Assembly: GCA_026394375.1 (NCBI GenBank)
Contig: JAPKYJ010000028.1
Span: 1-34,785 of the forward strand
Direction of reading: 5' to 3'
DNA length: 34,785 bases
Origin: Methanomassiliicoccales archaeon
GTDB lineage: Archaea; Thermoplasmatota; Thermoplasmata; Methanomassiliicoccales; UBA472
The notes under the pieces were generated by a model. It was given only the letters and a program-made list of their open reading frames with translations. It searched no databases and was not told where the DNA came from. A program made the translations under genes and the position numbers. How positions within the stretch are numbered: position 1 is the stretch's first letter; each line of letters begins with the position of its first letter. Positions 24,404 to 34,785 of the stretch are shown one piece after another.

Positions 24404-24532
24404 TGGTCGATCGTTCTGGCCACTCCCTGCCCATGTGCCATTCCGACTGCGAAATACTTTAGTAGCATACCTTGCATCATCTTCCGTCTAGGCCCCATGG
24501 ACCAGGCTTGGGCGCTACATCGTCGGCGACCT

Positions 24533-24575
24533 GTCGGTTTTCCGACTCACTGCCCGTGCAAGTGTCTGGCACGGG
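24533..24575. promoter_or_regulatory. Cluster of inverted repeats upstream of the condensing-enzyme operon
   Basis: GTCGG-TTTT-CCGAC (24533-24546) is followed directly by CCCGTGC (24553-24559) and GCACGGG (24569-24575) around a 9-base spacer. A further GTCGG/TCGGA pair on either side could lengthen the second palindrome. All lie just upstream of a strong TATA box, so they are more likely protein-binding sites than transcribed hairpins. The regulator is unknown. Confidence 0.5.
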
Positions 24576-24584
24576 TCGGACCGA

Positions 24585-24592
24585 GTATATAT
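24585..24592 (+). promoter_or_regulatory. TATA box for the condensing-enzyme/aconitase/dehydrogenase operon
   Basis: GTATATATC is the clearest TATA element in the window. Transcription is predicted to begin near 24615, leaving a leader of about 70 bases before the ATG at 24686. Confidence 0.6.
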
Positions 24593-24685
24593 CTGGATGG
24601 TCTGCGACAACGGCGTCCTCGGCCCCGGTCTACTGCTGGAGCCCCGAGAACGCGTCCGAAGACAAGAAGAGGAATGGGAGCGGAG

Positions 24686-25858
24686 ATGAAGGACAGCCAG
24701 AAGATCCTTGCCAAGCTGAGCAAGAACCCAGTGAACGTCTGCGACACCACCCTGAGGGATGGAGAGCAGGCGGCCGGGATCGTCTTTGCCAACATCGAGA
24801 AGGTGCGCATCGCCCGCATGCTGGATGAGATCGGGGTGCCCCAGATAGAAGCGGGCATACCGGCCATGGGCGGGGATGAGAAGAGAGTGATCAAGGAGAT
24901 CGCCAAGCTTGGCCTGAGCGCATCCGTGCTAGGCTGGAATCGTGCTTCGCTCGAGGACATCGCCCACAGCATCGATTGCGATGTTGATTCCGTGGCGGTC
25001 TCCATGTCCTCTTCGGACATCCACATCGAGCACAAGCTCATGAAGTCCCGCGAATGGGTGCTGCAGAGGATCACCGAGGCCATCGAGTACGCCAAGGCGC
25101 ATGGCCTGTACGTCTCCTGCAACGCGGAGGACGCATCCAGAGCGGATCGCGATTTCCTTATCCTGTTCGCCCGCACCGCCAAGGAGGCGGGAGCGGACCG
25201 AGTGCGTTACTGCGACACCCTGGGGATCATGGAGCCGCTGCGCACCTACAAGATCATCAAGGACATCATCGACACGGTCGACGTTCCGATTGAGATGCAC
25301 ACCCACAACGATTTCGGCATGGCGACCGCCAACGCCATCGCAGGCGTCCAGGCCGGAGCCACGTTCCTCAGCACCACCATCATGGGCATCGGCGAGCGCA
25401 CCGGCAATTCCCCTCTAGAGGAGGTGGTCATGGCGTCCAAGTACGTCCTAAACCTGGAGACGGGTGTGGAGACGGCCCGCTTCCGGGAGATCGCCGAGTA
25501 CGTCGCTCGCGCCTCGGGACGCGTGATACCGGAATGGAAGCCCATCGTCGGTTCGAACTGCTTCGTGCACGAGGCCGGGATCCATGCTGATGGCGTACTC
25601 AAGTGCGCCTCCAACTACGAGGCGTTCTCGCCCGAGTCCGTGGGATTGGAAAGGCGCATCTCCATCGGCAAGCATTCCGGCCGTCACACGGTAAAAAGCA
25701 TTCTGGCCAAGCATGGCTTCGAGGTCGACGACGATGCTGCGGGCAAGATACTGGAGATGGTGCGTTCCAGCTCCATCGCCCTCAAGCGCGCTTTGACGGA
25801 GAAGGAGCTCGTTTACCTCTATCAAGATTGGAAGGATGAGGCGCAGAGATTGGAGTGA
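24686..25858 (+). CDS. NifV/AksA-family condensing enzyme: homocitrate synthase or Re-citrate synthase
   Basis: The 390-residue protein belongs to the isopropylmalate/homocitrate synthase (DRE-TIM) family and condenses acetyl-CoA with a 2-oxo acid. It carries CDTTLRDGEQAAG (D20-Q28, metal and catalytic arginine) and MHTHNDFGMATAN (metal-binding H205, H207). TIMGIGERTGN follows near residue 240, and the C-terminal subdomain has AGIHADGV. There is no leucine-binding LeuA dimer domain, so LeuA proper is unlikely. The first part is most like NifV/AksA. Because aconitase-type subunits and an isocitrate-dehydrogenase-like gene follow, oxaloacetate (citrate product) and 2-oxoglutarate (homocitrate product) are both possible substrates. 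ATG 24686 is preferred, with GGGAG five bases ahead; ATG 24674 is the alternative. Confidence 0.88.
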   Translation: MKDSQKILAKLSKNPVNVCDTTLRDGEQAAGIVFANIEKVRIARMLDEIGVPQIEAGIPAMGGDEKRVIKEIAKLGLSASVLGWNRASLEDIAHSIDCDVDSVAVSMSSSDIHIEHKLMKSREWVLQRITEAIEYAKAHGLYVSCNAEDASRADRDFLILFARTAKEAGADRVRYCDTLGIMEPLRTYKIIKDIIDTVDVPIEMHTHNDFGMATANAIAGVQAGATFLSTTIMGIGERTGNSPLEEVVMASKYVLNLETGVETARFREIAEYVARASGRVIPEWKPIVGSNCFVHEAGIHADGVLKCASNYEAFSPESVGLERRISIGKHSGRHTVKSILAKHGFEVDDDAAGKILEMVRSSSIALKRALTEKELVYLYQDWKDEAQRLE

Positions 25859-25868
25859 AGGTGAAGGC

Positions 25869-27122
25869 ATGGGAACCATCGCAGAGAACATACTCACCAA
25901 CCACGCGGGGAAGGAGCTGCACGCCGGGGACATCGTGGTGGTCCCGGTGGACTTCATGATGAGCCAGGACGGCACCACGCCGCTCACGATCAAGGCGTTC
26001 AAGGAGATGAACGGAGAGGCGATATTCGATCCCTCCCGGTACGCCATCGTCATCGATCACAACGCGCCCTCGCCTCTGGAATCGGTATCTAACATTCATA
26101 AGGAGATGCGGGAGTTCGCCTCGGAGCAAGGGGTGAGGCTCTTCGATGTGGGCGAAGGGGTATGCCACGTTCTCATCCCTGAATCGGGCCAGGCTCTTCC
26201 GGGCAGCCTCATCATCGGCGCGGACTCGCACACCACCACCTACGGCGCATTGAACGCCTTCTCCACCGGGGTGGGCTCGACCGATCTGGCGGCCGCGCTC
26301 ATCTCTGGCAAGACCTGGATGAAGGTGCCTTCGACCATCAAGACGCAGTACGACGGCTCGCTGCCCAAGGGCGTCTACTCCAAGGACATCGCGCTGCGGA
26401 TGTGCGCCAAGCTAACAGCGAACGGCGCCACCTACAAAGCCTTGGAGATATGTGGCGAGGTCATCGACTCGCTCTCCGTGGAAGCGAGGATGACCATCTC
26501 CAATCTGGCCGTGGAGACCGGAGCCAAAGCGGGAATGATGCGCTGCGACCAGAAGGTCGAGGCGTATCTGGAGGGCCGCGCCAAGCGCCGTTTCCAGGGC
26601 GTGGACGCAGATGACGACGCGAAGTACGAGAAGGTCATCAAGGAGAACGTATCCAAGCTCTCCCCTCAGATCGCCTGCCCGCCCGACGTGGATAACGTAG
26701 TCCAGATCGAGAAGGTGCTGGGGAAGGAGATCGACCAGGTGTACATAGGAACGTGCACCAACGGTCGCATCGAGGACCTGATGATCGCCGCCAGCATCCT
26801 TAACAAGAACAAGGTGGCGAAAGGTGTCCGCTTGATAGTCGCTCCCGCGTCTCGGGAAGTCATGATGGCGGCCATGGAATGCGGCGCGCTGCAAAAGCTG
26901 GTGAAGGCAGGAGCGGCCGTCACCACTCCTTCCTGCGGACCGTGCGTCGGCACATGCAACGGCATTCCCTCGGACGATGAGGTCGTTCTATCGACAGCCA
27001 ATCGCAACTTCAAGGGGCGCATGGGCAACACAAAAGCCTCTATCTTCCTTTGCTCGCCTGCCACCGCTGCCTACTCGGCCATCAAAGGGTTCATAGCCGA
27101 CCCGAGGGAGGTGCTGGAATGA
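25869..27122 (+). CDS. Aconitase-family large subunit (LeuC/HacA/aconitase type)
   Basis: The 417-residue protein is the catalytic large subunit of a split hydro-lyase that isomerises citrate, homocitrate or isopropylmalate type acids. Cluster ligands appear in IGTCTNGR (about residue 298) and SCGPCVGTC (about 359-367), and VIDHNAPSP (about 64-72) and GADSHTTTYGA (about 118) are also conserved. The ATG at 25869 follows GGTGAAGG and lies ten bases after the stop of the condensing enzyme; the frame open upstream overlaps that gene and is not used. Substrate cannot be decided from the large subunit; the partner small subunit and the dehydrogenase downstream are better guides. Confidence 0.92.
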   Translation: MGTIAENILTNHAGKELHAGDIVVVPVDFMMSQDGTTPLTIKAFKEMNGEAIFDPSRYAIVIDHNAPSPLESVSNIHKEMREFASEQGVRLFDVGEGVCHVLIPESGQALPGSLIIGADSHTTTYGALNAFSTGVGSTDLAAALISGKTWMKVPSTIKTQYDGSLPKGVYSKDIALRMCAKLTANGATYKALEICGEVIDSLSVEARMTISNLAVETGAKAGMMRCDQKVEAYLEGRAKRRFQGVDADDDAKYEKVIKENVSKLSPQIACPPDVDNVVQIEKVLGKEIDQVYIGTCTNGRIEDLMIAASILNKNKVAKGVRLIVAPASREVMMAAMECGALQKLVKAGAAVTTPSCGPCVGTCNGIPSDDEVVLSTANRNFKGRMGNTKASIFLCSPATAAYSAIKGFIADPREVLE

Positions 27123-27622
27123 AAGACCTCTTCGGCCGGGCGCACAAGTTCGGGGACAACGTGAACACGGACTATATCATCGCGGGAAAGTACAAATTCA
27201 AGTCGCTGGACATGAACGACATGGCCAAGCATCTGATGGAGGACCTCCGTCCCGGCTTCTACGATGAGATAGAGGACGGTGATTTCATCGTGGCGGGGGA
27301 GAACTTCGGCATGGGCTCGTCCCGCGAACAAGCGCCGCTGGTGATCAGGGCCGCGGGAATCAACGCGGTCATAGCCAAGTCCTTCGCGCGCATCTTCTAC
27401 CGCAACTGCATCAATATCGGTCTTCCAGTCATAGAATGTGACACCGACGATATCGATGAGGAGGACGAGCTGCGCATCGACCTGGAGAGGGGTTTCGTGC
27501 ACAGCGTGACCAAGGACACCAGGCTGAAAGCGACCCCCTTGCCTCCGGTGATGGTCAAGATCCTCAACGACGGCGGGCTGGCGGAGCATTTCAAGAAGCA
27601 CGGCGGTTTCAATCTGGAGTGA
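27119..27622 (+). CDS. Aconitase-family small subunit (LeuD/HacB type)
   Basis: The 167-residue swivel-domain subunit completes the hydro-lyase. It has [18 protein letters not shown] (about 14-31) and the substrate-carboxylate site [11 protein letters not shown] (about 61-71), with [16 protein letters not shown] near 86-101. The specificity loop after the YIIAGKY segment reads KFKSLD. That differs from the YLRV/YLRT loops of methanogen isopropylmalate and homoaconitase small subunits, so it may accept another tricarboxylate such as citrate. The ATG overlaps the large-subunit stop by four bases, making translation coupled. Confidence 0.92.
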
Positions 27623-27645
27623 GCGATTTCCATAAGGTGGAGAAC

Positions 27646-28854
27646 ATGGTCGACCGAGCGACGATCGAACGCGCGAAGGAGCACTTCGGGCAGCTCGTGG
27701 AAGAACAGCTCGAACGCGTGGAAAGGATGAAGAAGGAGGAGGGCTGGGTCGATCTCTCCAAAAAGGATAGGATCATCATCGGTATAGTGGGCGGGGATGG
27801 GATCGGTCCCTACATCTGCAGGCACGCGGAGAGCGTCCTCCGTTTCATGTTGGCCGAGGAGATCAAGGCGGGGAAGGTGGAGCTGCGCGAGATCCGGGGG
27901 CTGACCATCGAGGACCGGGTCAAGGCGCTCAAGGCCATTCCTGACGATGTGCTGGTCGAGCTAAGGAAATGCGACGTCATCCTCAAGGGCCCGACCACCA
28001 CGCCCAAGAAAGGGGACAAGTGGCCGAACATCGAGAGCGCCAACGTGGCCATGCGCCGCGAGCTGGACCTGTTCGCGAACGTTCGACCGGTGCGCGTTCC
28101 CCGTGAAGGCATCGATTGGATCTTCTTCCGGGAGAACACGGAAGGCTCCTACATCCTTGGAAGCAAAGGGATCGACGTCACCAAGGAACTGGCGTTCGAT
28201 TTCTGCGTCGCCACTTCCCCAGGCTCGGAGCGCATAATCCGACTGGCGTTCGAGCACGCGAAGAAGAATAAGATCTCAAAGGTGACGGTGGTCACGAAGG
28301 CGAACGTCGTCAAGGCCACCGACGGCAAGTTCCTCGCCATGGCGGAGAAGGTGGGTAAGGATTACCCCGGCATCAAATGGGATGATTGGTTCATCGACAT
28401 CATGACGGCGAAGCTCCTTGATACAGCGAGAAGGAAGGAGTTCCGGGTGATGGTGCTTCCGAATCTGTATGGGGATATCATCACGGACGAGGCGGCGCAG
28501 ATCCAGGGCGGCGTGGGCACGGCAGGCAGCGCCAACATCGGCACCAGGCATGCTATGTTCGAGGCGATTCATGGCTCGGCGCCGCGCATGGTGGAGGAAG
28601 GAAGGGCGGAGTATGCGGACCCGTCCAGCATCATCAAGGCGGCGGCCATGCTGCTCAACCACATTGGTCTCACGGAGAGATCGAGGAGGCTGGAGCACGC
28701 TTTGGACATATGCACTCAGTTCGAAAGGCAAAAGGTGGTCACTGGTCGCTCCAACGGGGCTACCGGCGCCGAGCTCGCCGACTACGTGATGCGAGTGCTG
28801 AAGGAACCGGACCTGGAGACGAAGTGGTCCAAGTACTCGGCCGCTCAAGTCTAG
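27646..28854 (+). CDS. Isocitrate/isopropylmalate-family dehydrogenase, probably isocitrate dehydrogenase
   Basis: The 402-residue beta-decarboxylating dehydrogenase has GIVGGDGIGP (about 46-55), PNLYGDIITDEAAQIQGG (about 266-283) and HGSAPRMVEEG (about 305). The substrate region ESANVAMRRELDLFANVRP keeps S131, N133 and R137 in the S-x-N-x3-R spacing that reads the gamma-carboxylate of isocitrate in E. coli Icd. Isopropylmalate enzymes have a different helix there. Arg-Met follow AP in the cofactor loop, so NAD versus NADP use is not certain. The ATG at 27646 has AAGGTGG five bases upstream; a GTG at 27619 overlapping the small-subunit stop is the alternative. An N-terminal extension of about 40 residues precedes the Rossmann-like core. 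Confidence 0.9.
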   Translation: MVDRATIERAKEHFGQLVEEQLERVERMKKEEGWVDLSKKDRIIIGIVGGDGIGPYICRHAESVLRFMLAEEIKAGKVELREIRGLTIEDRVKALKAIPDDVLVELRKCDVILKGPTTTPKKGDKWPNIESANVAMRRELDLFANVRPVRVPREGIDWIFFRENTEGSYILGSKGIDVTKELAFDFCVATSPGSERIIRLAFEHAKKNKISKVTVVTKANVVKATDGKFLAMAEKVGKDYPGIKWDDWFIDIMTAKLLDTARRKEFRVMVLPNLYGDIITDEAAQIQGGVGTAGSANIGTRHAMFEAIHGSAPRMVEEGRAEYADPSSIIKAAAMLLNHIGLTERSRRLEHALDICTQFERQKVVTGRSNGATGAELADYVMRVLKEPDLETKWSKYSAAQV

Positions 28855-29146
28855 CCTTTTCATCAGATGGCCACAAGGAATCGCACCGTTCATTTGGCAC
28901 CGGAGAAAAGGTGGTCTACATTTCACCGCGGAAAGGATGAAACCCTAGGACCAAAAGCAGAAGAACGGTCATCTGCCGAAGGCGACGGAGGAGCAGCCGC
29001 CCCAAGGGGGATACTCCTCCCACGATCTCAAAGACAAATGATTCCGAGATGCCTCGTCACCTTTGGATAATTGCTGGGAAAGGCAAATATCCATCTTAAG
29101 CAGATGGGTCGGGCAACCTATCCATAGATATCATGGAGGAAAAACG
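28855..29146. other. Intergenic region with candidate structured RNA or regulatory hairpins
   Basis: The 292-base gap before the giant protease gene contains several short complementary segments. The clearest is GGAGGAG (28987-28993) pairing with CTCCTCC (29014-29020) around an inner CCCC-AA-GGGG. An alternative pairing, GGCG (28981-28984) with CGCC (28998-29001), would exclude it. CACC/GGTG repeats occur further left. A TATA-like CAAATATCC lies at 29084-29092 downstream of these. I could not match the region to a known riboswitch class. No T run follows the main hairpin, so it is not a plain terminator. Confidence 0.45.
29084..29092 (+). promoter_or_regulatory. Putative TATA box for the surface protease gene
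   Basis: CAAATATCC is centred about 59 bases before the proposed CTG start. It would give transcription from about 29114 and a leader of about 30 bases carrying the GGAGGA ribosome-binding site at 29135-29140. It lies downstream of the TTG at 29063. Confidence 0.4.
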
Positions 29147-32100
29147 CTGAAGAAGCTCGTAGCCTTCGGAACGTTGCTGCTGTTCGTGGTCCCTTTGATA
29201 GCTGGCCTAGCGAACGCCCAAGGCATTGACGGAGCTTCGGTGGAATCTGGATCGAGCTTGGGCATCGCTCCCGGGGTTAGCTTTTCCACCGCTTCTGGCG
29301 CAAGATTTCACTATGCCACCGCATCCGACATCGAGCTGATGAAGGAGATGATCGGTGTCCGGGAACCCGGGCGAGACTACAACGTCATTCAGGGAGGGTT
29401 CGGCACCGGTCTAGCCCCGCCTACACAGGAAGCTTGGGATCGCATGGTCGGTAGCTCCCTGATCCTCGAATCGCTTCCTCAAGGTCCGACGGCGCCGGCC
29501 TCCTACGACCTTTCCACCCAGCCCTACTTCCCAGCGGTCGGCAATCAGGGAGGCCAGGGTTCCTGCTCCGCCTGGGCCGCGACCTACTACAGCTACGGAT
29601 ATACCGAGGCCAAGGACCAGGGCTGGACGGACGCGAAGACCGGTAACACCGCACATCTCGTCAGTCCCGCCTGGACCTACAATCGGGTCAACGGTGGTGT
29701 AGACCATGGTTCGTGGATGGATGAGAACATGGACATCATCGTCGATTGGGGCGTTCCGTCCATGCAGGCCATGCCCTACAACGACCACGATCTCTTGAAT
29801 TGGGGCAGTCCGGCAGCCTTCCGGGAGGCGCCGTTGCACCGGGCCTCAAGCACCGTTTCCATCTCCTATTCCGGGGACTTAACCATCAACCAAATCAAAG
29901 ACCTCGTTTCCTCGGACAAGCCGGTAACGTTCGCTTTCAATGTGTGGAACGCTTTTGATACTGGCCTCACCGACAACAATATCGTTTCTGCTGCCGAGTA
30001 CCTGGGAGGCGATACGAACCACGCCCAGACCATCGTGGGCTACAATGACAGCATCTCCGAGGACGGCGACGTCGGCGCGTTCCGAGTGGTCAACTCTTGG
30101 GGCACGAGCGACGGCTACACTGACCACGGCTACTACTGGTTCACCTACAAGGCATTGAAAGAGATCGGCGGCGCGGCCGGGCTCTGCTACATTGAGGATC
30201 GCGTCGACTACAACCCGCGACTTCTGGCTGTCTGGCACTTCAACGCCCAGCCAAGCCGCAACAACGGTTTCACTTTGGGCATTGGTAGTCCCACCACTCC
30301 GGCCGATCAGCGCTCTCCCCTGTTCTCTAGTGATTCCAACTCCGCTCACCGCCAGCCGGCCTTCATGTGCCTGGATATCACAGATTTCAATTCTACCTAC
30401 AACCTAGGCACCACCTCCTTCTTCTTGAAGTACCTGGCCACTTCCGCCAGCGGGGTCATCTCATCCTTCAGGGTGGAGATGTACGAACCCTCCTATGTCT
30501 CAGGAGCGGCCACCCAGGTCTCTCCGCAATCCTCGGACGTGCCGAGGACGACACCGGACACGGTCACGGTCAGCTTTCCCTACCATGCGCAGATAGGCTA
30601 TGACGAGGGTCTGGACACGAGCGGGCATACCTACACTTCCACGTCGCTTTCCAAGTGGGTCGGTGTCGATCACCGATCGATCTATGATGGAGATGCCCTG
30701 CAATCTGGCGATACGGCCAATTCCGACGAATCCAGCATTTCCACCACCGTCACCGGACCGGGCGCGGTGGGCTTCTATTGGCGGGTCTCCTCCGAGGCCA
30801 GCAAGGATTACCTTAACGTCTACCTGGATGGAATCAAGAAGGCATCGATCTCCGGTTCGGTGGATTGGAGGCAACAGGTGGTCGCTCTGACGGCAGGCGC
30901 GCACACCATCCGCTGGTCCTATGCCAAGGACAGCGCCAACAGCGTCGGCGAGGATGCCGGCTACGTGGACAGGCTGCGCATGCTGCCCCCGGACGACGGC
31001 TACGAGGAGAATGACGTCTACAGCACGGCCAAAATACTGTCACCGGGCACTTATCTTGGATTGGTATGCTACGACGACGATTGGTTCAAGGTGCACGTGG
31101 TCCCCGGCCAGGTCGTCTACGCGAACATCAGCTTCGTGGCCGCGGACGGGAACCTGGATCTCTTCCTCTATGACACCGACGGCACGACGCTCCTGGATTC
31201 CTCTCAAGGCACGAGTGAGTTCGAGACCGTGAGCTCCTCTGTGCTCGTAGAAGGCGACTACTACGTCCTGATACATGGTGTCAATGCAGATACCAATACC
31301 TACTCCCTGTCGGTGCAGACCACACTGGACAATATTGATCTGGGAGAGGTTAGCAGTCTGTCATTGTTCTCGGGATCGGGATCGTTCAGCGGTTTGGGAG
31401 CGAGCGACAAGGACATGACGGTCAACGCCGGAACGCATCTCACCGGCACGGTGGTCCTCAGGTACAAGAACTACTGGCCCTCTGCCTCCAACATCCCCCT
31501 GATCGGGACGACCAGCTGGGGCTCACACGCATCCAACTATTGGACGATCAGCGCGGATCTGCCCGACGGCAGCTCGCAGCTGACGGTGAGCATCGACGTC
31601 ACAGTGCCCGCCACGGCAGGCAACTTCTATCTCATCTTCGCCTTCCGGAACGAGTCGTCCGGGGCCCACATCGCCTCGGCTACGTCCTCCTCGGGCAGCC
31701 CGGTCTGGGACGACGGCAACGATATCGCTTCATTCAGCTCCACGCAGGTAACGGATGCACAGGCGGACGGACGGGCCGAGGTCTCCTGGCTCTTCGGTTC
31801 CAGCGGTCGATCGCTCTTCGTTCCCTCCGAGGCCATCAAGATCGTCTCCAAGGTACCGGACAATACGCCCCCCGTCACCGAGGTGCAGCTCGCGGGCACC
31901 GCTGGCAACGGAGGGTGGTTCAAGTCCTCGGTCACCGTCACCCTCACCGCCTCCGACGTAGGGAACGGTGTCCAGTACACCAAGTACCAGATCGATTCCG
32001 GAGGCTGGCAGACGTATTCCGTGCCTTTCGCCATATCCTCGGAAGGCACCAGCACCGTCTACTACTACTCAGTGGACTACGACAGCAACACAGAGACGAC

Positions 32101-34081
32101 GAAGGAGGTGGAGGTCAAGGTCGACCGCATCGAGCCGACGACGCTGATGACGATCTATGGAACGAAAGGCCTCGGGGATTGGTGCGTTTCGGTGGTGGTG
32201 GTCAACCTGACCGCTTCCGATACGCCTAGCGGCATCGCGTCTATCAATTGCAGGGTGGACGGCGGTCCTTGGCAGCTATACTCGTCGAATATCACGATCG
32301 GCGAGGAAGGGCAGCATACCGTCGAATGGAACGCCGTCGACGTCGCTGGCAACGCCGAGGACGTCGACAGCCTGTCGCTGCGCATCGACCTGGTGGCGCC
32401 GCAGAGCACCGCGACCGCCACCGGCGACGGCCAGGGAGGATGGTTCAACCGGACCGTGAATGTGACGTTGCAGTCGACTGATACGCAGAGCGGCGTGAAC
32501 TTCACCCTGTACCGTATCGATAACGGCTCCTGGCTCACGTACTCTCTGCCGTTCGATGTTAGCGGGGACGGAGGGCACGAGGTGGAGTTCTACGCCGTCG
32601 ACATGGCAGGCAACTCGGCCTCTCATCTCAATTTGACATTCCGGATCGATGCCACGCCTCCCATCTTGAGCCTAGAATTGCTCGGTTCCACAGGAGAACA
32701 GGGTTGGATGATATCCTCGGCATCGTTCACCATGGACGCCAGCGATCTTGTAAGTGGCCTGGCGCATTCCTTCGCGAGCATCGACAACGGCACGTGGTTC
32801 GAGTATTCTGAAGGGTTGACCGTCTCTTCCGACGGTCCGCACTCCATCCGCTGCTACGCCGTGGACGTGGCCGGGAACCCATCATCCGTCGAGGAAATGG
32901 ACTTCAAGCTCGACCTCACTTCGCCTGAGACCTCCTTCTCGCTGGAGGGTGTCGAGGGCAACAATTCCTGGTACGTCTCGGAGGTCAACGTCACCCTCGT
33001 GCCTTCGGATTCGATGAGCGGCGTGCTGCGCTGTCAGTACTCACTTGATAATGGCATCTGGTCGGACGTCTCAGGCACGATCCTATTACAGAACGAGGGC
33101 TCGCACACGCTTCGATTCCGGTCCGATGACCGGGCGGGCAATCAAGAGAGCGTTCAGAGCCTGAGCATCAAGATCGACACTCAGACACCAACGTCGAGCG
33201 CTCTTGCCTCGGGGTCGGAAGGGCTGGCAGGTTGGTATGTGAGCGCGGTGGTATTGCAGCTACAAAGCGCCGACATTTCCAGTGGCCTGTTGAACACAAC
33301 ATATAGTCTGGATGATGGACCTCTCGCCAACTACTCCCAACCCCTGACGGTCTCATCGCCAGGCGAACACACGATGAACTACTACGCCCAGGACCAGGCG
33401 GGGAACCTGGAGACGACGAGGTCCATATTGTTCCGCATAGACACCGGGAAGCCTCAGAGCTCGAACACCCTGACCGGGCCGATGGGCAGCGAGCAATGGT
33501 ATCTGGGAGAGGTGTCGATCAACCTTTCAGCTTCCGACTCAGTAAGCGGGATCCTCCAACTGGACTATCGAGTGGATGGAGGGGAGTGGCTCACCTTCCT
33601 TAGTGTGGTAGGAGTGGCGTCCGAAGGAGATCACGAGCTCGAGTATCGAGCCATGGACCAGGCGGGGAACGTGGAGACGACCAACGCCCTCTCCTTCCAC
33701 ATCGACAGCTCGGCCCCCAGCCTGGAGCTATCGGTCGACAATGCCAAGCACTCCACTTCAGGTTCCTTGCGAGTGGCTTGGACGAGCGCCGACCAGGTCT
33801 CTTCGCTCTTCCAGGTGAAGGTGAGCGTTGATGGCAAGGAGTATGCGGTCGTCGCTCCCGACGAAAAGGATCTGGAGATCAAGAACCTGGGAGACGGAAA
33901 GCACACGGTTTCCTTGCGCTCAACGGACGTCGCCGGCAACTCCGCCATCGCCAGCTACGAGATCACGGTGGATACCAACCCCCTGAGCCCCGACGGACCT
34001 CTGGGGCCGTGGCTCCTGGTGACCTTGGGCGCTTTGGCAGTGGCGGCGATCGGTTTGGTCATCTGGCGCAGAAGGAAGTAG
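29147..34081 (+). CDS. Giant surface protein: papain-like protease, PPC domain, eight Ig-like repeats, C-terminal membrane anchor
   Basis: About 1,644 residues. A signal peptide (KKLVAFGTLLLFVVPLIAGLANAQ) precedes a C1A papain-like domain (about 115-330) with Gln and nucleophile in NQGGQGSCSAW (C140), histidine in TNHAQTIVGY (H292) and asparagine in VVNSWGT (N316). A PPC domain follows (about 616-715, DDWFKVHVVPGQ). Then come eight Ig-like repeats of 86-89 residues ending VDVAGN-like (about 907-1608), and a membrane helix with RRRK tail (about 1620-1644). It probably acts at the cell surface on proteins or peptides. Start: GGAGGA lies six bases before CTG at 29147, which gives a perfect signal peptide. 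The conventional alternative is TTG at 29063, adding 28 residues upstream of the probable transcription start. Repeats may extend or display the protease. Confidence 0.9.
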   Translation: MKKLVAFGTLLLFVVPLIAGLANAQGIDGASVESGSSLGIAPGVSFSTASGARFHYATASDIELMKEMIGVREPGRDYNVIQGGFGTGLAPPTQEAWDRMVGSSLILESLPQGPTAPASYDLSTQPYFPAVGNQGGQGSCSAWAATYYSYGYTEAKDQGWTDAKTGNTAHLVSPAWTYNRVNGGVDHGSWMDENMDIIVDWGVPSMQAMPYNDHDLLNWGSPAAFREAPLHRASSTVSISYSGDLTINQIKDLVSSDKPVTFAFNVWNAFDTGLTDNNIVSAAEYLGGDTNHAQTIVGYNDSISEDGDVGAFRVVNSWGTSDGYTDHGYYWFTYKALKEIGGAAGLCYIEDRVDYNPRLLAVWHFNAQPSRNNGFTLGIGSPTTPADQRSPLFSSDSNSAHRQPAFMCLDITDFNSTYNLGTTSFFLKYLATSASGVISSFRVEMYEPSYVSGAATQVSPQSSDVPRTTPDTVTVSFPYHAQIGYDEGLDTSGHTYTSTSLSKWVGVDHRSIYDGDALQSGDTANSDESSISTTVTGPGAVGFYWRVSSEASKDYLNVYLDGIKKASISGSVDWRQQVVALTAGAHTIRWSYAKDSANSVGEDAGYVDRLRMLPPDDGYEENDVYSTAKILSPGTYLGLVCYDDDWFKVHVVPGQVVYANISFVAADGNLDLFLYDTDGTTLLDSSQGTSEFETVSSSVLVEGDYYVLIHGVNADTNTYSLSVQTTLDNIDLGEVSSLSLFSGSGSFSGLGASDKDMTVNAGTHLTGTVVLRYKNYWPSASNIPLIGTTSWGSHASNYWTISADLPDGSSQLTVSIDVTVPATAGNFYLIFAFRNESSGAHIASATSSSGSPVWDDGNDIASFSSTQVTDAQADGRAEVSWLFGSSGRSLFVPSEAIKIVSKVPDNTPPVTEVQLAGTAGNGGWFKSSVTVTLTASDVGNGVQYTKYQIDSGGWQTYSVPFAISSEGTSTVYYYSVDYDSNTETTKEVEVKVDRIEPTTLMTIYGTKGLGDWCVSVVVVNLTASDTPSGIASINCRVDGGPWQLYSSNITIGEEGQHTVEWNAVDVAGNAEDVDSLSLRIDLVAPQSTATATGDGQGGWFNRTVNVTLQSTDTQSGVNFTLYRIDNGSWLTYSLPFDVSGDGGHEVEFYAVDMAGNSASHLNLTFRIDATPPILSLELLGSTGEQGWMISSASFTMDASDLVSGLAHSFASIDNGTWFEYSEGLTVSSDGPHSIRCYAVDVAGNPSSVEEMDFKLDLTSPETSFSLEGVEGNNSWYVSEVNVTLVPSDSMSGVLRCQYSLDNGIWSDVSGTILLQNEGSHTLRFRSDDRAGNQESVQSLSIKIDTQTPTSSALASGSEGLAGWYVSAVVLQLQSADISSGLLNTTYSLDDGPLANYSQPLTVSSPGEHTMNYYAQDQAGNLETTRSILFRIDTGKPQSSNTLTGPMGSEQWYLGEVSINLSASDSVSGILQLDYRVDGGEWLTFLSVVGVASEGDHELEYRAMDQAGNVETTNALSFHIDSSAPSLELSVDNAKHSTSGSLRVAWTSADQVSSLFQVKVSVDGKEYAVVAPDEKDLEIKNLGDGKHTVSLRSTDVAGNSAIASYEITVDTNPLSPDGPLGPWLLVTLGALAVAAIGLVIWRRRK
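31865..33976 (+). repeat. Eight tandem Ig-like protein repeats within the surface protein
   Basis: Repeat units begin at about 31865, 32132, 32396, 32654, 32921, 33185, 33449 and 33713, spaced 258-267 bases. Each starts near a Pro (TPPVTEV, APQSTAT, TPPILSL) and has a Trp-containing G-WF/WY segment. ASD-SG follows, then an IDNG-W strand and a closing AVD-AGN motif with a final Asp. The eighth copy is the most diverged and lacks the G-W segment. DNA identity between copies is low, so they are old duplications. Confidence 0.9.
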
Positions 34082-34194: not shown

Positions 34195-34785
34195 TCAGAT
34201 GGGAAGGCGCTTCTCCACCACTTCCCAGTTGACCAGGCTCCACCAGTTCTCCACGAACTTGCCGCGGTCGTTCTTGTAATCTAAGTAGTAGGCATGCTCC
34301 CAGACATCGAGCACCAGGAGGATGCTCATCATCGGATTGACGTTCGCGTTGTGCTTCTCGATCTGGAACAATATCGGACGGTTGGTGTGCTTGCAGAAGC
34401 CCAGCGCCGCCCAGCCGGAGCCTTCCGTGCTGTTGGCGGCCATGGAGAACTCCTTCTTGAAGCGATCGAAGGAGCCGAACTCCTTCTCGATGATGTCCCC
34501 GGTCTTGCCACCGGGCCTGCCGCCCCCTTGGCCGGTCGGAGCCATGTTCTGCCAGAATCGCTCGTGCAGCAGATTCCCTCCGAAGTGGAAGGAGAACTCC
34601 TTCAAGGTGGCCTTCATATCCAAATCAACGTTCTCTTTCCTTGCCTTGTCCAGCTTCTGCAGGATGGCGTTCGCACCGTTCACGTAGGCCGCGTGATGCT
34701 TGTCGTGGTGCAGTCGGAGCAGCTCCTCGGAGATCACCGGCGCCAGGGCCTTGTAGTCGTAGGGCAGTGGCGCCAGGACGTAGAA
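34195..34785 (-). CDS. sod: Fe/Mn-family superoxide dismutase (5' end outside window)
   Basis: The enzyme converts superoxide to oxygen and hydrogen peroxide in the cytoplasm. The visible 196 residues run from [20 protein letters not shown] to the stop. Metal ligands appear in [11 protein letters not shown] (first His), [13 protein letters not shown] (second His) and [17 protein letters not shown] (Asp and third His). [11 protein letters not shown] lies between. Only a few N-terminal residues are missing because the gene crosses the right window edge; an internal GTG at 34737 should not be taken as the start since the conserved [10 protein letters not shown] lies upstream. Fe versus Mn preference cannot be fixed from these residues. 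It converges with the surface protease gene. Confidence 0.95.

Follow-up and report, generated by a model that had tools for sequence, protein, structure and literature searches.

A predicted membrane-tethered papain-like protease with an unnamed partner domain in a methanogenic archaeon of the order Methanomassiliicoccales

The gene at positions 29147-34081 (+ strand) of the window, by which we mean the whole analysed DNA stretch of 34,785 nucleotides, encodes what is probably an active C1A (papain-like) ectoprotease, as judged from its sequence and from those of its relatives. A surface-tethered C1A protease on an Ig-like stalk had been proposed in a sequence-only reading of the same DNA, and this proposal is supported by invariant catalytic residues, by profile matches and by the hydrophobic segments at the N- and C-terminal ends. 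The only really unfamiliar feature of the protease family is its pairing with a domain without a name, here designated A4.

Gene, start codon and order of domains

The open frame extends on the + strand from TTG 29063 to TAG 34081 (1,672 amino acids), and counted from 29147 the protein has 1,644 residues, so that the more than 1,600 residues claimed for it correspond to a real long open frame. The start itself is less straightforward: codon 29147 is CTG, which is not standard, but it is plausible as a non-canonical start, being located 7 bases after GGAGG and at the position where the relatives L022, L027, L028 and L029 carry ATG. These relatives begin with lysine or arginine plus hydrophobic residues (MKRAIV in L022, MRRFIA in L027, MRRLLA in L028 and L029). 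Because they have ATG at the same place, it is likeliest that CTG 29147 is used or that the assembly contains a base error there, TTG 29063 being the alternative start. A promoter and terminator scan of the window gave no excess over shuffled sequences, the motifs employed being of the sigma-70 type, which is inapplicable to archaea.

Strong hydropathy (above 1.6 in 19 residues) is confined to the two ends of the protein. The predicted order is signal peptide, divergent C1A domain, beta-type domains including a PPC-like one, seven repeats followed by a diverged eighth, transmembrane helix and RRRK tail:

29135..29139, + strand: Shine-Dalgarno-like GGAGG, read directly
29147..29218, + strand: predicted signal peptide, residues 1-24, ending ANA/QG (hydropathy 2.52 over 19 residues from residue 4; ATG of the homologues; cut site placed by eye)
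29219..29479, + strand: pre-catalytic segment, residues 25-111, with a conserved YNV..G.GTGLAPP motif (alignment A1)
29480..30181, + strand: C1A papain-like catalytic domain, residues 112-345 (alignment and family profile)
29546-29548, + strand: Q134, catalytic by alignment
29564-29566, + strand: C140, catalytic by alignment
30020-30022, + strand: H292, catalytic by alignment
30092-30094, + strand: N316, catalytic by alignment
30200..30637, + strand: unnamed domain A4, residues 352-497, conserved behind the protease in relatives
30638..30985, + strand: tentative MAM/VesC-like beta-sandwich, residues about 498-613 (fold comparison of a low-confidence model)
30992..31318, + strand: PPC-like domain, residues about 616-724 (counterpart in L027 matches PF04151)
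31319..31867, + strand: further conserved segment between PPC-like domain and repeats, residues about 725-907 (similarity to relatives)
31868..33712, + strand: seven OmpL47-type repeats of 87-88 amino acids each, residues 908-1522 (profile and self-comparison)
33713..33976, + strand: eighth, diverged repeat of 88 amino acids, residues 1523-1610 (NF047446 E 9.4e-6, under the cut-off, own-genome scan)
33977..34081, + strand: NPLSPDGPLGPW motif, transmembrane helix (about 33995-34066), RRRK tail and TAG stop (hydropathy up to 2.34)

From the earlier list of domains the protease, the repeats and the anchor stand; what it had missed are the pre-catalytic segment, two domains between protease and PPC-like domain and one between the latter and the repeats. 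The pre-catalytic segment, which over residues 60-111 has 37-46% identity with three relatives, could possibly be a propeptide. An inhibitory propeptide of the I29 type is typical of many C1A peptidases; no Pfam family matched the segment, and none of the I29 type was among the Pfam matches.

Catalytic domain, A4 and the repeat stalk

Q134, C140, H292 and N316 stand in the Gln-Cys-His-Asn order of C1A peptidases and are invariant across the aligned family, which bears out the claim of a full catalytic set: the first two are kept in 31/31 aligned proteins and the last two in 30/30, the 31st row (L050) ending at a contig edge. In the catalytic alignment the members are 41-59% identical to the window protein. 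Alignment A1, from which the family profile was built, contains 28 of the 31 aligned proteins (L024, L033 and L050 were dropped because of an N run or a cut at a contig end). Against the PDB this 28-row profile matched 133 sequences at E ≤0.001, with 3ois (E 1e-16) and the cathepsins S and K (from 1.8e-13) as top matches, 3ois being what we take to be xylellain, a cysteine protease from Xylella fastidiosa. Pfam Peptidase_C1 was found at E ≤1 in 27/28 members of the catalytic alignment (best 8.1e-19), the exception being the window protein, and Peptidase_C1 (PF00112) was over its curated cut-off in 12/12 full-length relatives scanned. The window protein on its own yielded only Peptidase_C1_2, under the cut-off (domain E 0.012, whole-protein E 0.11), and 3ois at E 0.0033 in the PDB; PF00112 had no match in its own genome at E 1e-3. 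The window protein alone is only weakly papain-like, and its assignment to C1A depends on the motifs together with the family profile.

A retained papain fold serving as a mere binding module would agree with these poor scores of the window protein against papain models, yet the invariance of the four catalytic positions among members at 41-59% identity to it speaks against this, and we regard a pseudoprotease as very improbable. The nucleophile pair would consist of C140 and H292, with Q134 as oxyanion residue and N316 as the orienting one. Since residues 1-346 of the window protein contain no cysteine besides C140 (other members have 1-5 there), no disulfide is possible in its catalytic domain. 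Structure prediction of the catalytic part with two sequences as input reached a mean pLDDT of 29.2. The construct suggested earlier for expression, residues 115-330, would end inside the conserved G328-Y330-T333-Y334, cutting the catalytic domain short, and would omit A4.

In the 61 genomes of the order the A4 profile found 31 rows in 20 genomes. Of these rows 29/31 are directly behind a protease match and 2/31 coincide with the very start of a contig (G008:C76, G014:C4), so that outside the protease context A4 was seen only as two contig-start fragments whose preceding part is off the contig. Likewise, 28/30 protease places have A4, the remaining two being cut by contig ends (G008:C113, G016:C132). 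A4 matched nothing in Pfam beyond chance when 25 members were scanned (the alignment has 25 rows, the cut L046 having been removed), and its profile found no match in the PDB (best E 0.17), which does not show that the fold is new.

For residues about 498-613, comparison of a model of mean pLDDT 43.9 with VesC (6bqm) by VIA-align 2 gave Z 11.1, rmsd 2.4, 107 aligned residues and 16% identity, and the same low-confidence model gave Z 8.1-9.2 with meprin, neuropilin and other MAM domains. In the model of the two domains following the protease, block means of 50-80 are found only at model residues 181-270 (residues ~525-614 of the window protein), and the fold comparison is therefore readable only there. 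The sequence profile of the domain against the PDB yielded no more than the metalloproteinase chain 4k90 (E 0.048) and VesC (E 0.43). The underlying alignment A5 consists of 15 of 25 prepared rows and leans to the better-aligned ones, ten having been dropped by hand: L023, L026 and L042 as being without the domain, and L025, L031, L032, L034, L035, L038 and L049 as near-duplicates or poorly aligned. The designation as MAM/VesC-like accessory domain is therefore tentative.

The PPC domain proposed earlier is indicated only by way of a relative. PF04151 (PPC) found no match in the window protein itself (Pfam, E ≤1), but it matches the counterpart part of L027 with E 1.5e-6, and over residues 641-745 the identity to L027 is 35% (35-42% to three relatives). 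The segment that follows is similarly conserved, residues 746-907 being 39-47% identical to L022, L027 and L028.

The seven regular and one diverged Ig-like repeats were confirmed for residues 908-1610 and are of the OmpL47 type: NCBIfam NF047446 matches in 8 stretches with E 3.1e-127 and 415.2 bits (cut-off 40). The Leptospira OmpL47 equivalog NF047441 is also passed through the repeats (277.9 versus 250 bits), this model covering the repeat part only. The repeats are in register, seven of them at 30-41% mutual identity and the eighth at 20-28% to the others. Three other frames of the same genome match the repeat family, one on contig C19 over the cut-off and those on C3 and C22 under it.

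The claimed membrane anchor was found as a C-terminal hydrophobic segment with an RRRK tail; the relative L027 ends similarly in SPQGPFGPW, a helix and RRRKM. The motif before the helix resembles part of a tripartite sorting signal, an interpretation that was rejected: the GPxGPW DNA pattern occurs at 3 places in the genome, the other two being without a membrane helix after it when translated, and no archaeosortase was found there with TIGR04178, the only model used (E 0.1), which matched in 5/14 controls, 3 of them over the cut-off. The C-terminal end is therefore treated as an ordinary helix anchor. Another frame of the genome (L065:2232-3824, - strand) has at its C-terminus SPTGPMG followed by hydrophobic and then basic residues, which resembles the SPDGPLG anchor of the protease.

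Distribution, setting and likely role

A search of the order that covered 61 genomes, that of the window among them, found the protease at 30 places in 21 genomes. The 40/61 genomes without a match indicate that it is not essential for the lifestyle. By family, it was present in 12/22 genomes of its own, in 9/23 of four others and in 0/16 of the family f2; among genomes with completeness ≥90% and contamination ≤5% the count was 16/45. The difference between f2 (0/16) and the rest (21/45) has a Fisher p of 4.5e-4, in which shared ancestry is uncorrected. Weak matches of the profile (E 3e-7 to 5e-11) were seen in three f2 genomes (G048, G206, G319), that in G206 being limited to profile positions 185-275, as in other C1A proteins. 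Across the phylum, the A1 profile matches 107 of 389 sampled genomes at E 0.001; a hand count gives strong matches (E ≤4e-45), most of which span nearly the whole profile, in 31/389, and the next match below these (1.2e-16) covers less than half of it. Viral contigs gave 15 pattern matches, none of which could be confirmed as a relative.

A homology search for the same architecture in other Methanomassiliicoccales had been suggested, and the domain order is common to L022, L027 and L028 (two other genera), in whose frames the first repeat begins at residue 905-915; contig ends truncate L022 and L028. In the 12 full-length relatives examined with Pfam the protease is constant and the stalk varies, with fn3 domains in L023 and L031, Big_7 and others in L026, PKD in L021, a beta-helix plus Big in L035, and mixtures elsewhere. 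All 31 family frames (31/31) have an N-terminal hydrophobic segment (peak at least 2.0). A C-terminal hydrophobic segment with a basic tail is present in 19/21 frames judged, namely those that are free of N runs and end in a true stop, the other ten having been set aside; it is absent in L023 and in L025, where a frameshift may be the cause.

Ten neighbouring proteins were scanned and are ordinary metabolic, translation and transport proteins, which give no hint as to proteolysis. At 24497-28854 of the window, genes for homocitrate synthase, the large and small parts of aconitase and an isocitrate dehydrogenase-type enzyme are arranged in a row, presumably the coenzyme B (Aks) set, as fits methanogens. 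A gene for a Fe/Mn superoxide dismutase (34195-34785, - strand), cut by the window end, converges on the protease gene in this methanogen. Among the neighbours listed for the relatives, the isocitrate dehydrogenase-type gene known from the window adjoins the protease in two cases from genus g2, L042 and L050, where it is inverted, and in L027 a relative of the dismutase gene is located about 1.6 kb behind the protease. Such shared neighbours hint at a long residence of the gene at this locus. As proof of descent they were rejected, because in the tree L042 is on another branch, with L045 and L047 (97/91), whereas the window protein groups with L028 and L029 (90/82) and then with L022 and L027 (81/55), none of these supports being starred.

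The organism is a methanogen, since its genome carries mcrA (PF02249, E 1.5e-66); this gene and L021, the one relative found with the window protein as single query, from a Candidatus Thermoplasmatota MAG, fit the Methanomassiliicoccales. The genome also encodes a substrate-binding protein of the oligopeptide type (PF00496, E 1.8e-58). PF00496 proteins also bind other substrates. An OPT transporter was not found in the genome (2/14 controls matched). A further PF00496 match (L068, G000:C5:1732-2280, - strand) contains two internal TAG codons and is either a broken gene or one in which TAG is read as pyrrolysine, a use of TAG known from this order.

Other frames of the genome deserve mention. 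One (L065:3427-5118, + strand; G000 contig C19, about 47426-49117) matches the Ice_binding-like family PF11999 with E 2.6e-78, has two Big_5 stretches and ends in a hydrophobic and basic tail, by which it appears as a membrane-anchored ice-binding-like protein in a methanogen; its neighbour on the opposite strand carries OmpL47-type repeats. Another (L066:1757-6883, + strand; G000 contig C22) is a frame of 1,709 residues with NosD/beta-helix repeats and fn3 domains, which has at its end a CPICG..FCPECG motif and not a membrane helix.

With respect to function, the signal peptide would export the chain, the C-terminal helix and basic tail would fix it to the membrane, and the stalk of Ig-like repeats would keep the N-terminal enzyme at a distance from the cell, while A4 and the MAM/VesC-like domain probably aid folding of the enzyme or binding of its substrate. 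The likeliest job would be to cut protein outside, in the vicinity of the cell, into peptides that are then assimilated, and we consider it moderately probable that the protein is a membrane-tethered C1A endopeptidase of this kind. Assimilation, rather than energy, is suggested because the organism carries the methanogenesis gene mcrA. According to the accessible text of PMC9123169, extracellular peptidases are more numerous in Methanomassiliicoccales than in TACK and other Euryarchaeota; amino acids for biosynthesis are given there as one possible reason for peptidases in methane-cycling archaea, besides cell-wall rearrangement and osmolytes. The same text counts the order as non-protein-degrading and peptidase genes as a poor proxy for protein catabolism. 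For the methanogens of the order the window protein is a concrete candidate for extracellular proteolysis, a point that this source, as far as accessible, leaves open, since it records many extracellular peptidases in archaea that have not been observed to degrade protein.

It is also possible, with considerably less confidence, that the protein is of the adhesin type and that its protease acts on the surface proteins of the same cell or of partner cells by trimming or releasing them, the role then being remodelling or contact and not feeding. The architecture is like that of methanogen adhesin-like proteins as described in the available portions of PMC2812497 and PMC11532034, the stalk types differ among relatives (OmpL47/Big, fn3, PKD, beta-helix), three further frames of the genome match the repeat family (one of them over the cut-off), and cell-wall rearrangement is among the peptidase roles just cited from PMC9123169. 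Yet no partner gene or substrate was found, and turnover of pseudomurein is unlikely if the organism is wall-less like an isolate of another genus: according to the accessible part of PMC10673518, Methanomethylophilus alvi is without wall or S-layer and has long surface fibrils, M. luminyensis being reported with two membranes. The scan for PF09373 (pseudomurein) carries no information here, since no control genome matched. We favour assimilation over surface remodelling or contact.

A stalked ectoprotease could also act as a contact-dependent weapon against neighbouring microbes or on host-derived protein, for which nothing specific was found. This appears improbable: none of the ten scanned neighbours looks like an immunity or secretion gene, and the family was not found in f2, which might be the host-associated clade. 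In the part of PMC7883539 that could be consulted, the free-living as compared with the host-associated clade of the order shows a trend, which is not significant, to more Ig-like and fn3 domains.

One may tentatively go further and regard the family as a two-part Thermoplasmatota enzyme, in which the C1A protease needs the fused A4 for substrate capture or folding and is carried on exchangeable stalks (OmpL47/Big, fn3, PKD, beta-helix); we hold this for conceivable rather than probable. If it were true, wall-less archaea would display proteolysis on a modular surface scaffold. The window protein also delimits a protease subfamily that has A4 as its unnamed partner and is accessible to expression and assay.

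Comparison with known systems

Among solved structures, xylellain (3ois) matches the catalytic profile best (E 1e-16), the alignment extending from the region of the active-site Cys through His and Asn. Its chain of 291 residues leaves no room for A4 or for the MAM-like, PPC-like and repeat domains. In the C-terminal domain of VesC from Vibrio cholerae (6bqm) an accessory beta-sandwich is located behind a secreted protease, as is predicted for the window protein from a low-confidence model; the likeness is limited to the accessory domain, VesC being a serine protease. With OmpL47-type proteins (NF047446, NF047441) the repeat unit is in common. To our knowledge, the OmpL47 protein of Leptospira is without any known protease domain.

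Closest in design are papain-bearing adhesin-like proteins of Methanobacteriales. In the available portion of PMC2812497 several such proteins with a papain domain are described from Methanobrevibacter ruminantium, a role in wall turnover being proposed, and the accessible text of PMC11532034 lists one each in M. smithii and M. stadtmanae. By these descriptions they share with the window protein the location, here predicted, on a methanogen surface, the papain domain, anchoring of the adhesin type and Ig-like domains, and of the adhesin-like characters the window protein has the predicted signal peptide, the repeated Ig-like domains and the C-terminal membrane anchor. They differ, again by description, in that they belong to pseudomurein-walled cells and carry M1-C or ABD domains, whereas the window protein has OmpL47-type repeats, A4, a MAM-like domain and a plain helix. 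A beta-helix domain is common but not universal in methanogen adhesin-like proteins (PMC11532034, accessible text); no right-handed beta-helix family was among the Pfam matches of the window protein, and the relative L035 has one.

Within the phylum, a transcribed extracellular C1A peptidase is reported for Thermoprofundales/MBG-D in the part of PMC6461988 available, an extracellular location being predicted for the window protein as well. The available part of PMC10380794 mentions numerous prokaryotic C1A peptidases that are complex multidomain proteins, outside its own analysis, and the accessible part of a classification of papain-like proteases (PMC10318531) contains none of the terms sought, its reference list aside. 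Among the papers listed in literature searches, which left most subscription journals uncovered, there was none on the protease family. The partner domain of this protease branch is so far without a name, and the enzyme type is well known: already in print are papain-bearing surface proteins of methanogens and extracellular C1A peptidases of Thermoplasmatota.
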